The notes below the pieces were generated by a model. It worked only from the letters and a program-made list of their open reading frames with translations. It had not been told where the DNA came from and made no database searches. Below, in pieces: positions 1 through 39,490 of a stretch of DNA of 64,000 nt. Position numbers and translations under genes: made by a program. Origin of the DNA: Thiohalobacter sp. IOR34 (GTDB lineage: Bacteria; Pseudomonadota; Gammaproteobacteria; Thiohalobacterales; Thiohalobacteraceae); NCBI RefSeq assembly GCF_030406045.1, contig NZ_CP128988.1, forward strand, positions 2,143,438 to 2,207,437, given 5' to 3'. The stretch's first letter is position 1. Every line of letters begins with the position of its first letter.

Positions 1-1965
1 GCCGCGCAACTGCTTGAGCTGCTCGTAGGGCGACAGACCGTCGCGCTTCTCGCGCTCGAGGATACCGGTGAGGTCGGCGTCGGAACCGGCCGAGGCACGG
101 ATCAGGTCGCGTAACACCTCCTCGGCGTCGTAGAAACCGTCCGCCTTGCGCTTGTAGGGGAGGATCTTCTCCATGTCCAGGCCCAGCAGGGTGCCGATCT
201 CCTTGGCCTTGTCGATCACCATGTCCATGTCGGGACGGCAGCCCGGAGGCGGCTCGGCGGCCTTCTCGCAGATGTTGATGCGCCGCTCGGAGCTGATGTA
301 CACGCCCTGTACCTCGCCCCAGGTGGCCGCCGGGAAGATCACGTCGGCATACAGGTTGTTGGGGGCGTGGCGATAGATCTCCTGCACCACATTGAAGGTC
401 TTGCTCAATGCCGGGCGCACCAGATTGTACTGATCGGGCAGATCGATATGCGTCGCGTAGACCAGGAACATGGCCTTCACGTCACCCTTCAGGGCGCGCT
501 CCATCATGCCCACGGCCATGCCCGGATTCTGCGAGTTCATGGCATTGATCAGGTTCTGCTCCGGCACCCGCCAGGCCTTGGCGATGCGCGCCCGGTGGGT
601 GCTGTTCTTCAACGGCTCGTTGAACGGCAGGCGCCCGGTCAGGCCACCGGTGAAGCGCTCGCCCATGGCATTCGGCTGGCCGGTCATGGAGAAGGGACCG
701 CAGCCGGGCTTGGCCACGTTGCCGGTCAGGGCCAGCAGGTTGACGATGGAGATGACGTTGTGCTGGCCATGCAGGTGCTGATTGTAGCCGATGCCCCACA
801 TGATGATGACACCGCCCTGCTCCTTGCCCTGCTTGCCGCGGGCGAGGCGCTTGCGGGTGGCGTCGGCGAACATGCCGGCGACACGGCGGATCAGTGCCGG
901 GGAGACGTCGTGGTTCGGCCCGCCCATGCGGTCCTGGACCTGCTCCGGGCTGTAGTCCTTGAGCACGCCGTCGACGTATTCCTTCCAGCCGGCGACATGC
1001 TGCTTGAGGAAGTCCCAGGCGATGACGTCGTCGTGTTCCTTGAGCAGCACATGGGCGATGGCGTTGAGGAAGCTGATGTCGCCGTTGAGGATCGGCACAT
1101 GCACGGTGTTGTCCGGATTGATGTCCTCGTAGCCCATCACCGTGCCGGTCCGCCGTGGATCGACGACCACGGTGGGAATATTGCTGCGCTTCTTGTAGTC
1201 GGCGATGCGCCAGAACACGATCGGGTGCGACTCACGGGCGTTGTGGCCGAAGTGCATGACCATGTCGGCCAGCTCCAGATCCTCGTAGGCCAGCGGCGGG
1301 GTGTCGGAACCGAGGGTGGCGAAATAGCCGGTCACCGCCGAGGTCATGCACATGCGGGCATTGGCCTCGATGGTATTGGAGCCAAGGATGCCCTTGAGGA
1401 ACAGGTTCTCCAGGTACTGCCCCTCCACCGTCAGCTGGCCGGAACCATAGAGGGCAATGGAATTGCCGCCGTATTTCTTGGCGAAGTGGGCAATCTTGTG
1501 CGCCACCATGACGGAGGCCTTTTCGTAGGGCACGCGCACGAAATGCTCGTCGTCGAAGGAACCCTTGGTCTGGCTGGTGTACTCGATGTCACCGTGGCCG
1601 GGCTTGTTCCACTCGGCCCAGACGTCCTTGCGCACATAGGCATCGCCTTCCATGCGGTCGACGTACATGGGTTCGGCGGCGGTCAGGCCCTTGATGCACT
1701 GCAAGCCCTTGTTGGTGGGGTGGTCCTTGTCCGGGCGCATGGAGACGATCTTGCCGTTCTCTACCTGGATGACGGTACCGCAGCCAACGCCGCAATAGGG
1801 ACACTGGGCCAGGGCGGTGCTGCGCTTGGGCGTTTCCGCCTGGCTGGCCGGCGCTGCCTCCAGTTCCGGATTGTCGGCCACGAACAGGCCGGCACCCGCG
1901 GCGGTACCCGTGATGAATGCACTCCCCTTGAGAAACTTGCGGCGAGTTGTCTTGATGCGTTTCAT
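1..1965 (-). CDS. Periplasmic NapA-like molybdopterin oxidoreductase (C-terminus beyond window)
   Basis: Probable catalytic subunit of an anaerobic reductase of the Mo-bisMGD family; 655 residues are visible and the C-terminus lies outside the window. A twin-arginine signal (RRKFLKG, residues 8-14) implies folded export to the periplasm. A [4Fe-4S] site is visible as CPYCGVGC (Cys55, 58, 62) plus Cys90 in QCIKG. NARMCMTSAV places a cysteine (about 206) where NapA-type enzymes use Cys to bind Mo. The region from about 100 to 145 is longer than I expect for NapA, and GHNARESHPI differs from the usual WGSNMAEMHP. No napB, napC or napD is seen nearby. The start follows AGGGGGAAG and lies 13 bases after the cytochrome gene. 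The substrate is unproven; nitrate is the first guess. Confidence 0.8.
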   Translation of the reverse strand, partial: MKRIKTTRRKFLKGSAFITGTAAGAGLFVADNPELEAAPASQAETPKRSTALAQCPYCGVGCGTVIQVENGKIVSMRPDKDHPTNKGLQCIKGLTAAEPMYVDRMEGDAYVRKDVWAEWNKPGHGDIEYTSQTKGSFDDEHFVRVPYEKASVMVAHKIAHFAKKYGGNSIALYGSGQLTVEGQYLENLFLKGILGSNTIEANARMCMTSAVTGYFATLGSDTPPLAYEDLELADMVMHFGHNARESHPIVFWRIADYKKRSNIPTVVVDPRRTGTVMGYEDINPDNTVHVPILNGDISFLNAIAHVLLKEHDDVIAWDFLKQHVAGWKEYVDGVLKDYSPEQVQDRMGGPNHDVSPALIRRVAGMFADATRKRLARGKQGKEQGGVIIMWGIGYNQHLHGQHNVISIVNLLALTGNVAKPGCGPFSMTGQPNAMGERFTGGLTGRLPFNEPLKNSTHRARIAKAWRVPEQNLINAMNSQNPGMAVGMMERALKGDVKAMFLVYATHIDLPDQYNLVRPALSKTFNVVQEIYRHAPNNLYADVIFPAATWGEVQGVYISSERRINICEKAAEPPPGCRPDMDMVIDKAKEIGTLLGLDMEKILPYKRKADGFYDAEEVLRDLIRASAGSDADLTGILEREKRDGLSPYEQLKQLRG

Positions 1966-1978
1966 GCTCTACTTCCCC

Positions 1979-2632
1979 CTATTTGTTCAGCGTCCGCAGA
2001 TAGACGATGATGTCGTCGATCTCGCGGTCGGACAGATTCGCCAGCCCGTTGGAACCAGTGAAACCATGCATGGGGGTATTGGAACGCCCCTCCTTGATGG
2101 TCGTGCGGATGAAGCCGTCCGAGACCTTGCCGAGGAATCCCGGCTTGCCGATTGCCGTCCCCGAACCGCCCGCGGCATAGCCCTCGCCGTTCACGCCGTG
2201 ACAGGTGGAGCAGATCTCCTTGAAACGCTGTTTGCCAAGTTTCACGTCACCCTTGGCTGCCGGCTGCGCATCGACCTCGGCTGCCCGGCTCGGCCGCTTT
2301 GCGAAGCTGCGCAGATAGGCAATGATGGCCTGGATCTTGTCCTTGCTCAGGTGGGCAAAGGGCGGCATGGCGGTACCGACGCGCCCGTCATGGATGGTGC
2401 GCTCGAAGAAGCTGTCCGAAGCGATGCTCAGCAGCTCCGGATTGGTCAGCGAGGGGGCAAGGCCGGGCTTGCCGACCCCATCCTCCTGGTGGCAGAAGAT
2501 GCAGTTCTGCCTGAACAACTGCTCCCCCTGCTTGGCCAAGGCTGCATTGGCCGCCCCGGCCAACCCCGTATAACTCATTGTCAGCGCTACCACGCAGGCG
2601 GCGCTTGACGCAAAGCGTCTGCGTCCCGACAT
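1979..2632 (-). CDS. Diheme c-type cytochrome, likely electron donor to the molybdoenzyme
   Basis: Exported diheme cytochrome c of 217 residues. A signal peptide (MSGRRRFASS... to about ANA, residue 30) is followed by two class I cytochrome domains, with CIFCH and CSTCH heme sites. Each has a downstream Met (AMPPF; TPMHGF) as the likely axial ligand. It precedes the molybdoenzyme gene by 13 bases, so the two are probably one operon and the cytochrome is the likely redox partner (inference). An in-frame ATG two codons upstream at 2638 directly abuts the AGGAGG ribosome site. The ATG at 2632 sits six bases beyond that site, so I chose it. A perfect FNR box lies about 180 bases upstream. Confidence 0.88.
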   Translation of the reverse strand: MSGRRRFASSAACVVALTMSYTGLAGAANAALAKQGEQLFRQNCIFCHQEDGVGKPGLAPSLTNPELLSIASDSFFERTIHDGRVGTAMPPFAHLSKDKIQAIIAYLRSFAKRPSRAAEVDAQPAAKGDVKLGKQRFKEICSTCHGVNGEGYAAGGSGTAIGKPGFLGKVSDGFIRTTIKEGRSNTPMHGFTGSNGLANLSDREIDDIIVYLRTLNK

Positions 2633-2779
2633 AACCATCCTCCTAAGATTTGCGTTTATTCAACGAGCGACAAAACCCGGCTGGGGGAGTCCCGGAATCC
2701 GGCACAGCCTCAGCAGCAAAGGTCGCGGTCCGGCACTGATCCGCGACCAAATCCCCCTCTCATTCAAAGGTTGTGGCCC

Positions 2780-2821
2780 AAGATAGGGGATGACTTTTTC
2801 TGCCGCATTGATGCAGATCAA
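2780..2821 (-). promoter_or_regulatory. Class II FNR/ANR-type promoter for the cytochrome c-molybdoenzyme operon
   Basis: Bases 2808-2821 read TTGATGCAGATCAA, a perfect match to the FNR/ANR consensus TTGAT-N4-ATCAA. On the minus strand, 22 bases further, lies TATCTT (2780-2785), a 4/6 match to the -10 hexamer. This puts the box centre at about -41.5, the classical class II activator position. Predicted transcription starts near 2773, giving a leader of about 140 bases before the cytochrome start. Anaerobic activation is inferred from the motif only. Confidence 0.7.
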
Positions 2822-2901
2822 GCCAAATGCCACGACCACTGTGTCAAATGGCGCGTCCTGCCGCGGGCCGCCGACCGCTCCACACAGGGTGCCAAGGAGA
2901 A

Positions 2902-5835
2902 TCAGGACAGGGGGTCGGCGGGACAACACTGCTGACCAACGGTGTGCAACAGCCGTTCGAAGTCGGCATAGGGCAGCGGCCGACTGAACAGGTAGCCCTG
3001 GTAGGCGTCACAACCGTTGCGCCGCAGGAAATCGAGCTGCGACTCGTCTTCCACGCCCTCCGCGCTCACGTATTTGCCCAGATGCTGGGCCATGGCCAGG
3101 ATCGCCTCGACGATCACCGCATCGTTCACGTCCTGGCTGACATCGCGGACAAAGGAACGGTCGACCTTGAGGACATCGATCGGCAATCGCTTGAGATAGG
3201 CCAGGGACGAATAGCCGGTGCCGAAATCGTCCACCGACAGTCGCACACCCAGTGCGCTCAGGGCGCCCAGCTTGTGACTGACATCATTGAAGTCATGAAT
3301 CAGAATGCCCTCGGTGAGTTCCAGTTCCAGGCAACCGGGATCGACGCCGGTCTCGGCAATGATCCGCTCCACCTGGCTCACGAAATCGGGCTGCTGGAAC
3401 TGCCGCGGACTGACATTCACCGCCATGCTGCACGGCCCTCGGGAACCTTCGCCAAAACAACCCATGCGCACCGCCTGCTGGCAGGCCGTGCGCAACACCC
3501 ATTCCCCGATGGGAACGATCAGACCGCTCTCTTCCGCCAATGGAATGAAGCTGTCCGGTGCGATGATGCCCCGCTCCGGATGCCGCCAGCGCAGCAGCGC
3601 CTCGGCCCCGATAATCCGGTTGCTGGCGATCTCCACCTTCGGCTGGAAGTGCAGCTCGAACTGTCCCTGCTGGACAGCCTGGCGCAGGGCTTCCTCCAGC
3701 ACCAGGCGTTCCATGGCGGCCACATTCATCTGTGGCGAGAAGAACTGGTAACCGCCGGCCCCTGTGGTCTTGGCCTGATACATGGCGATATCGGCATGCT
3801 TCAGGAGTTCGTCTGCCGTCTCCCCGTCCTCGGGATAGAAGGCGATGCCGATCGAGGCCCGCAGATGGAACTCATGACCGTCCACCCACAGAGGCTGCCC
3901 CAGCCGATGCAGAATCTTGTGCGCCACCCGCGCCGCCTGTTCGATCTGGTTCATGCCTTCCAGTATCAAAGTAAACTCGTCACCGCCGAGGCGGGCCACG
4001 GTATCGCTCTCCCGGACCTGTTCCAGCAGGCGCCCGGCAACGAACTGCAGTACCTTGTCCCCGGTCTGATGCCCGAGGCTGTCATTGATGTGCTTGAATT
4101 TGTCCAGGTCGATGAACAGCAGGGCGAACCCCTTGCGGGCATGATCTGCCACGGCCATGGCGTGACCCAGGCGATCCTGGAACAGGGCCCGGTTGGGCAG
4201 GTTGGTCAGGGGGTCACGCTCCGCCATGTGCTGGAGGCGGGCCAGCATGGCCTTGCGTTCGGTAATATCCACCACCAGGGCGGTAAACAGCCGCCGACCG
4301 CTGATCAGCGTCTCGCTGACCTTGATGGAGACCGGCACCTCGCTGCCATCCTTGCGCCGCATGCACAACTCGCGCTCATTCCCCAGGACATGGCGAAAAA
4401 GGCCGCCCTTCAGGTACTCGTGCAGGTAGCCGTCGTGACGGTGACCGTGGGCCTCTGGCATCAGCCTGCCCAGGCTCTGCCCGATCACTTCCTCGCTGCG
4501 GTAACCAAGCAACCGTTCGGCGGCGACGTTGAAGGTCTCGATACATCCACCCTCGTCGATGGTGATGATGGCCTCTGCGGTATTGTCGAGGATGTTGGCC
4601 AGGCGTTGCTGCCGGCTGTTGACCTGCTCGCGCATCTCGCTGAAGGCCTCGCACAGATCCCGTGTCTCACGGGCTCCCGGCTGGAAACTGACCTCCCCGC
4701 CCCCTCCATGCGCCTCGCTGCGCAGCGCGGTGGCAACATCTCCGATCGGTTTGAGCACGGCACGATCGAAGAACAGGTAACCCAGAAAGGTCGTCACAAT
4801 GCCGCCCACCAGCAGCCACCAGAGGAAGTCGAGCAGCTGCTGGGCAATCCGTCCCATGTCCCGCATGGATTCCACCCAGGATGCCTCGAGCTGGTCGTAG
4901 AGTCCGGTGAGGCTCGACTCCAGGCTGGCGAAGAGTGGCCGCAGCCGCTGCTCCAGAGCCGTCAGATCCGCCCGCCAGGCCGGGGAGCGCAACATCTCGA
5001 TACTCTGCAGATAACGGCTGCGTCCCGCTGCATGGGCCTGGCGCATCTGCGCCAGGGCCTCGCTGACCTCGAACTCGAGCCGCCCTGCCTCCTCCAGTTC
5101 GGCAAGCCGCAGCAGGCCGGTGGCCACCTGCTGCAGGAACATCTCGATGTTCTCCACCCGCAGATCGAAGGCATGGCGTGAATCACCGGTGAAGACGCCG
5201 AAACGTATCGCCACCAGCAGTCGGAAATCCGCGATCACCCGCACCCAGTTGTAACGGCATTCCTCCAGCAGCCGCCGGACCTCCCGCCCGGCCGCATCCG
5301 TCGCTCCGTCCTCCAGGGCGGCCGCCACAGCACCGAGGAAGCCGGCATTGATGTCGGCGAGTTCGATCATCACCGTGGTGAAGGGGAAGGTCTTCTCGGG
5401 ATCCGAGCGGAGCTGCATCAGTGAGCGGATCTCCACCCGCAGTTGCCGGCTGTCCCGCTCGAGATCCTGCAACAGATCACGAAACCCCCCACGCTGTTGC
5501 AGCCAGTCCATCTGCGCCAGGGATGCTATGCTCCCGGCCAGCTCCTGGTCGGCAGCCTGCAACGCCTGGCGCGGCTGCTCTTCCGGCAGGATGATGAAAT
5601 CCAGCAGGGATGTCTTGAGAGCGGACACGCGCAGCATCAGGTCGTGCACCAGATCGGCGACCCGCACCTGCTGCTGCATCTTCTGGTGGTGGCTGTGCAG
5701 GGTCTGCTGCACGAAGAAGTGCCCGAGCAGTACCCCGCTGCCCAGCAGGGCGAACAGCAGGGTGGCGATCAGGATATAGCGGCCGCGCAGGCTATCGAGG
5801 CCCATATATCTGACAACACCGCTGGACAAACCCAT
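2902..5835 (-). CDS. Membrane sensor with PAS, GGDEF and EAL domains (cyclic-di-GMP turnover)
   Basis: A 977-residue inner-membrane signalling protein. A first membrane helix (about 15-40: ILIATLLFALLGSGVLL) and a second (about 330-355: WWLLVGGIVTTFLGYLFF) bracket a periplasmic helical sensor region. A HAMP-like linker and a PAS domain (ILDNTAEAIITIDEGG, near 410-470) follow. The GGDEF domain has an intact RLGGDEF (about 617), and the EAL domain has AEALLRWRHPE (about 745). Both catalytic signatures are present, so it may make or break cyclic-di-GMP, or be bifunctional. It is transcribed alone. The start is uncertain: ATGs at 5937, 5850, 5835 and 5805 are all in frame without a strong ribosome site. 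I chose 5835, ahead of the first helix. Confidence 0.88.
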   Translation of the reverse strand: MGLSSGVVRYMGLDSLRGRYILIATLLFALLGSGVLLGHFFVQQTLHSHHQKMQQQVRVADLVHDLMLRVSALKTSLLDFIILPEEQPRQALQAADQELAGSIASLAQMDWLQQRGGFRDLLQDLERDSRQLRVEIRSLMQLRSDPEKTFPFTTVMIELADINAGFLGAVAAALEDGATDAAGREVRRLLEECRYNWVRVIADFRLLVAIRFGVFTGDSRHAFDLRVENIEMFLQQVATGLLRLAELEEAGRLEFEVSEALAQMRQAHAAGRSRYLQSIEMLRSPAWRADLTALEQRLRPLFASLESSLTGLYDQLEASWVESMRDMGRIAQQLLDFLWWLLVGGIVTTFLGYLFFDRAVLKPIGDVATALRSEAHGGGGEVSFQPGARETRDLCEAFSEMREQVNSRQQRLANILDNTAEAIITIDEGGCIETFNVAAERLLGYRSEEVIGQSLGRLMPEAHGHRHDGYLHEYLKGGLFRHVLGNERELCMRRKDGSEVPVSIKVSETLISGRRLFTALVVDITERKAMLARLQHMAERDPLTNLPNRALFQDRLGHAMAVADHARKGFALLFIDLDKFKHINDSLGHQTGDKVLQFVAGRLLEQVRESDTVARLGGDEFTLILEGMNQIEQAARVAHKILHRLGQPLWVDGHEFHLRASIGIAFYPEDGETADELLKHADIAMYQAKTTGAGGYQFFSPQMNVAAMERLVLEEALRQAVQQGQFELHFQPKVEIASNRIIGAEALLRWRHPERGIIAPDSFIPLAEESGLIVPIGEWVLRTACQQAVRMGCFGEGSRGPCSMAVNVSPRQFQQPDFVSQVERIIAETGVDPGCLELELTEGILIHDFNDVSHKLGALSALGVRLSVDDFGTGYSSLAYLKRLPIDVLKVDRSFVRDVSQDVNDAVIVEAILAMAQHLGKYVSAEGVEDESQLDFLRRNGCDAYQGYLFSRPLPYADFERLLHTVGQQCCPADPLS

Positions 5836-6000
5836 AGCGAAACCCCGCATCCCGAAGGCGGTTCTTCTGTGTCCGGGCCCGCGGCATCCCTGCTGGGTGC
5901 CGGTGATCTGTGCCGGCCACCCGCTTCCTGTCGACAACTGGCAACTTCCACAACCGCAACAGGTCTATCGTCCCCGGAGGAAATGCCTTGAATCAACGCC

Positions 6001-39447: not shown

Positions 39448-39490
39448 ATTTTAGCAGGATTCCGAAGCTCCCCGATTTGATCTTGATCAG
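39448..39490 (-). promoter_or_regulatory. Class II FNR/ANR-type promoter for petABC
   Basis: TTGATCTTGATCAG (39477-39490) matches TTGAT-N4-ATCAA at nine of ten positions. On the minus strand, 23 bases further, is TAAAAT (39448-39453), a 5/6 match to the -10 hexamer. The geometry is almost the same as at the promoter at 2780-2821. The predicted start is near 39441, with a leader of about 60 bases. Confidence 0.7.

Follow-up and report, generated by a model that had tools for sequence, protein, structure and literature searches.

In Escherichia coli, 19 of the 23 promoters that FNR activates directly and whose start is known have their site at −41.5 ± 4 (PMC3688515). Class II promoters of this kind include narGHJI, dmsABC, nirBDC and nrf, and several of the targets are molybdoenzymes or nitrogen-respiration enzymes (PMC3688515). 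In the Anr/Dnr system of pseudomonads and the FnrL/Dnr system of Dinoroseobacter shibae, one type of box can be read by several Crp/Fnr regulators, and denitrification genes belong to the regulon (PMC5398030).

A site in Thiohalobacter sp. IOR34 resembles these systems in several respects. Its predicted position, calculated from the −10 hexamer, is also −41.5, its predicted target is likewise a molybdoenzyme operon, and exact copies of its box lie upstream of denitrification genes in the same genome. Unlike the targets in the Anr/Dnr and FnrL/Dnr systems, however, the target here is a NapA-like operon and not canonical nap or nir. Given the exact box, the 22-nucleotide (nt) spacing, the recurrence of both in relatives and the Fnr genes beside the operon in some of the genomes that carry it, a class II FNR-type promoter is very probable here. 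The promoter itself is ordinary, a switch of a known kind; the operon behind it is uncharacterised, and its enzyme is matched to no characterised one.

The probable promoter site and the operon behind it

The sequence-only reading of the window (the whole 64-kb stretch of DNA that was analysed) had claimed a perfect TTGAT-N4-ATCAA box followed, 22 bases on, by a TATCTT hexamer that would put the box at −41.5. Both the box and the spacing were confirmed by direct reading, and −41.5 follows from the −10 hexamer. The proposed target, a cytochrome–molybdoenzyme operon, also stands as described, and the box and its 22-nt spacing recur in many, not all, relatives. The features are as follows.

2808–2821, minus strand: FNR-type box TTGATCTGCATCAA, a perfect inverted repeat; exact motif match that recurs upstream of the operon in relatives
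2786–2807, minus strand: 22-nt spacer from the box to the −10 hexamer, read from the sequence
2780–2785, minus strand: −10-like hexamer TATCTT, separated from the box by 22 nt; TAnnnT is enriched at the same offset in relatives
2639–2773, minus strand: predicted 5′ leader of about 135 nt, for a predicted start near 2773
1979–2638, minus strand: diheme cytochrome c gene, 219 amino acids from the first ATG; translation more likely starts at 2632
1–1965, minus strand, running past the window (G000:C1:2142715-2145402): gene for a NapA-like molybdopterin oxidoreductase of 895 amino acids

With the hexamer taken as −12 to −7, the centre of the box, between 2814 and 2815, falls at −41.5 relative to a +1 predicted at about 2773. 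The hexamer matches TATAAT at four of six positions and fits TAnnnT. The box is intergenic, lying 80 nt from the stop of a GGDEF/EAL gene (2902) and 169 nt from the first possible ATG of the cytochrome (2638); an AGGAGG precedes the ATG at 2632 by 6 nt.

Exact TTGAT-N4-ATCAA occurs once in the 64-kb window against 0.01 expected from dinucleotide shuffles. With up to two mismatches, 21 sites were found against 7.47 expected, and within the window we treated only the exact box as meaningful, not sites with mismatches. The combination of box, 22 nt and TAnnnT, again with up to two mismatches, was found twice against 0.08 expected, both matches being one palindrome that is exact on the minus strand and has one mismatch on the plus strand. 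Elsewhere in the window, a one-mismatch box, TTGATCTTGATCAG, lies at 39477–39490.

Between 2560 and 2960 we found neither a usual σ70 promoter with a −35 and −10 pair nor a terminator-like site between the GGDEF/EAL gene and the operon, and a search of 2500–3000 for a structured leader gave no Rfam match up to E = 1. The GGDEF/EAL gene (2902–5937, minus strand) is directly upstream and co-directional, and read-through from it into the operon is possible. We also considered use of the box towards the plus strand, where TCAAAT (2844–2849) lies 22 nt away, one mismatch from TAnnnT. There is no likely plus-strand gene, and we rejected this use because the long plus-strand frame (2827–5181) is antisense to the GGDEF/EAL gene.

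The operon reads diheme cytochrome c, NapA-like molybdoenzyme, NapG-like, NapH-like and a second NapG-like protein. Two more proteins are encoded further downstream: one of 199 residues, for which NCBIfam and Pfam gave no match at E ≤ 0.001, and one of 510 residues, whose NapH-like matches are weak. Nearly all related loci keep the order cytochrome c–molybdoenzyme–G–H, as far as the contigs reach. Many relatives' operons begin with a gene for a NapC-like multiheme cytochrome (for example, L035:4571-5275), which the operon in the window does not have.

Recurrence of the box and spacing in related loci

The operon is widespread. In a class-level search, the first 300 residues of the molybdoenzyme found matches in 23 of 369 genomes at E ≤ 1e-80. 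A family-level search at E ≤ 1e-30 gave matches in 4 of 11 genomes, with a close relative of the enzyme only in Thiohalobacter sp. IOR34 and G007 (83% identity) and the other two at 36%. For related loci, we used the best 80 of 219 matching stretches, which are 78–86% identical (a range that describes the best 80 only). The 104 loci collected yielded 83 non-redundant upstream regions, after removal of 5 without the cytochrome gene or its start, 6 in which the contig ended within a leading NapC-like gene, 1 with less than 150 nt upstream and 9 near-duplicates.

The box was present with no more than one mismatch in 41 of these 83 upstream regions, which are not fully independent (19 exact, 22 with one mismatch), or in 40 of 82 when the source genome is set aside; the other 42 were without it at this threshold. 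The backwards pattern was found in none of the 83, and a box with zero or one mismatch occurred in 56 of 2,055 pieces of 400 nt taken from elsewhere in the same loci. Among all 1,024 half-sites arranged as an inverted repeat with a 4-nt gap, TTGAT ranked first (41 regions), followed by its neighbour TTGAC (26) and then by a half-site with 11. Divided by leading gene, the box precedes 30 of 54 cytochrome-led and 11 of 29 NapC-like-led operons, the two groups being separated by a simple rule; L038 and L061, in which an exact box lies further upstream, were probably misgrouped, which lowers the box counts.

Taken by itself, TATCTT says little, as the relatives show TAnnnT at a background rate near 2% for each offset (a mean of 0.77 in 40). 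At 22 nt from the box on the gene side, however, TAnnnT occurs in 13 of 40 loci (12 of 39 without the source genome), compared with 6 at 21 nt, 4 at 23 nt and a maximum of 3 at any of the remaining offsets from 5 to 59, over which that mean was taken. On the far side of the box, the count at 22 nt is 0 of 39, and no offset exceeds 4. The orientation and offset of TAnnnT match what a class II promoter would predict. Some observations count against it: the mean match to TATAAT is slightly higher at offset 21 (2.50) than at offset 22 (2.40), the Shewanella loci L085, L094 and L100 carry no −10-like hexamer at 22 nt, and L026, the nearest relative, lacks TAnnnT at that distance and has a box with one mismatch.

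Candidate regulators and competing readings

The 2.96-Mb genome contains nine exact boxes and none of the backwards pattern. Exact boxes precede moaA (L010), a cytochrome cd1 gene (L011), a presumed norC-like gene (L012) and nnrS (L013), and another (L006) overlaps the fnr frame at its first listed codon, upstream of the likely ATG starts. Fnr, MoaA, NnrS and the cytochrome D1 domain were named by profile matches. Three further exact boxes are near less usual targets for an anaerobic regulator: one between genes that we take by eye to be fabA and cyaY (L007, at 5018), one about 0.4 kb upstream of what is presumably rpsP (L008, at 5014) and one between a presumed radical-SAM gene and a gene that we read as pdxS (L009, at 5078). 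At a distance of exactly 22 nt towards the gene, TAnnnT is missing from all eight boxes other than the one in the window; in three it occurs at 21 nt (L009 and L013) or 23 nt (L010).

Four Crp/Fnr-family proteins in the genome scored above the cut-off: Fnr, CRP, L015 and L017. Fnr is assigned by score (302.6 bits against a cut-off of 228), with a cysteine cluster, CESCSLHQLC, and the recognition motif VETVSR, and CRP too was named by a profile match. The other two, L015 (REVVSR) and L017 (PETFSR), are without a cysteine cluster. L017 is presumed to be DNR-like, on the basis of its motif.

The most serious competitor to control by Fnr is that the box is read mainly by L017, so that the operon would answer to nitric oxide and not directly to oxygen, as nir and nor genes of denitrifiers do. 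We regard this as unlikely on balance. It draws on the PETFSR motif and missing cysteine cluster of L017, on the identical exact boxes before the cytochrome cd1, norC-like and nnrS genes, and on relatives of L017 in G141 (50% identity) and G258 (42%), both of which carry the operon with a box. Against it, the box is present in the genomes of L080 (exact) and L085 (one mismatch), in which a family search at E ≤ 1e-6 found only Fnr and CRP; in the genome of L094 (exact box) the same family has two further members, in neither of which we found the E..SR motif. Moreover, of 24 genomes examined, 7 encode a cysteine-type Fnr no more than about 5 kb upstream of the operon (G011, G121, G141, G237, G253, G335 and G348), and all seven family regulators found this close to the operon have the cysteine cluster. 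When the genome's own Fnr was compared with the 104 loci, eight had a match at E ≤ 1e-20, partly in the same genomes, with that of L051 in the opposite direction. The label of L017 is itself tentative: it comes from the motif, and FtrB, the best curated model for the protein, reaches a score of 91 where 211 is the cut-off.

Judged from sequence, control by oxygen through Fnr is the likeliest. The balance favours Fnr while the DNR-like protein stays in play because Fnr and Dnr boxes are indistinguishable (PMC5398030). Both regulators may act, so the two readings are not mutually exclusive and our confidence in one overlaps with our confidence in the other.

For the box itself, we consider it likely that this is where the activator binds in a class II FNR-type promoter that drives the cytochrome c–NapA-like–NapG-like–NapH-like–NapG-like operon. 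As oxygen falls, Fnr would hold an iron–sulfur cluster and dimerise; bound to TTGATCTGCATCAA at −41.5, the dimer would substitute for a −35 element and, by contacting RNA polymerase, bring about transcription from about 2773. Expression of the operon would give the cell a periplasmic reductase, with quinol electrons predicted to reach it by way of the NapG/NapH-type proteins and the diheme cytochrome c.

It is improbable that the box is instead bound but repressing, or activates another start, with TATCTT there by accident. The weakness of the −10, the 169 nt from the box to the first ATG and the relatives without a −10 at 22 nt would all suit such an arrangement, but the TAnnnT peak at 22 nt across relatives, confined to the gene side, and the lack of any other σ70-like promoter in the region argue for activation from the predicted start. 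A chance match without function is very improbable: the 42 of 83 upstream regions without a box would suit it, but the 0.01 expected in the window, the nine boxes to none in the genome and a recurrence in relatives far over background all speak against it.

The NapA-like enzyme and the nitrate reductases of its hosts

All 25 NCBIfam models that matched the molybdoenzyme scored under their cut-offs. The best was formate dehydrogenase alpha (334.6 against 666.25 bits), and the NapA models NF010055 and TIGR01706 reached 329 against 904 and 308.9 against 930.55 bits, respectively. We considered filing the enzyme as NapA and rejected this on score (309 against 931 bits). It is 32% identical to the genome's own NapA over residues 4–589, and the solved structures that it matches best are periplasmic nitrate reductases. 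In NapA, the cysteine ligand at the molybdenum site is followed by a Met; here, NARMCM aligns to NARHCM of the genome's NapA.

The enzyme and its operon share with Nap the 4Fe–4S cysteines, the Cys-Met at the molybdenum site, a twin-arginine-like N terminus (judged by eye) and NapG- and NapH-like genes. Unlike in Nap, the first gene of the operon encodes a diheme cytochrome c, and neither napB nor napD was recognised among the genes read. Plasmid records gave no match at E ≤ 1e-100. Among the titles and abstract openings listed, we recognised no paper that describes the operon, a result that does not imply that it is unpublished.

We searched 24 of the 31 operon-bearing genomes, some of them drafts, for known nitrate reductases, leaving out G100, G195, G196, G242, G246, G278 and G293, mostly as less complete. 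NapA was over its curated cut-off in 10 of the 24 and NarG in 2, with partial NarG matches (E ≤ 1e-100) in 2 more. At the thresholds used, 12 of the 24 had neither curated NapA nor NarG and no partial NarG (G007, G045, G090, G093, G121, G141, G237, G253, G258, G335, G342 and G348). Genes with a cytochrome d1 domain are present in 8 of the 24, five of them among these 12 (G007, G090, G141, G258 and G348). These counts would fit a nitrate reductase, with reservations: NapA-related proteins of about 730 residues, possibly assimilatory, occur in nine of the 12 (the exceptions are G121, G237 and G335), further distant NapA-related proteins of about 900 residues occur in others of the genomes, drafts are among the genomes searched, and some denitrifiers start from nitrite.

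The absence of curated NapA or NarG from half of the operon-bearing genomes searched is the reason to think that the enzyme may be an unrecognised respiratory nitrate reductase, with which these absences are compatible. Tentatively, and with the odds somewhat against it, the operon could encode an unrecognised periplasmic respiratory nitrate reductase, in which a diheme cytochrome c takes the place of NapB and electrons enter through NapG/NapH-type, often also NapC-type, proteins. Such an enzyme, strongly conserved in distant proteobacteria and often under FNR-type control, would be the missing nitrate reductase of cd1 denitrifiers without NapA or NarG.

With 12 of 24 operon-bearing genomes lacking curated NapA and NarG at these thresholds, surveys that score napA and narG alone may undercount nitrate reducers. 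The promoter described here places a widespread, uncharacterised NapA-like reductase among the genes predicted to be controlled anaerobically, and this predicted control indicates the conditions in which the activity of the enzyme should be sought.
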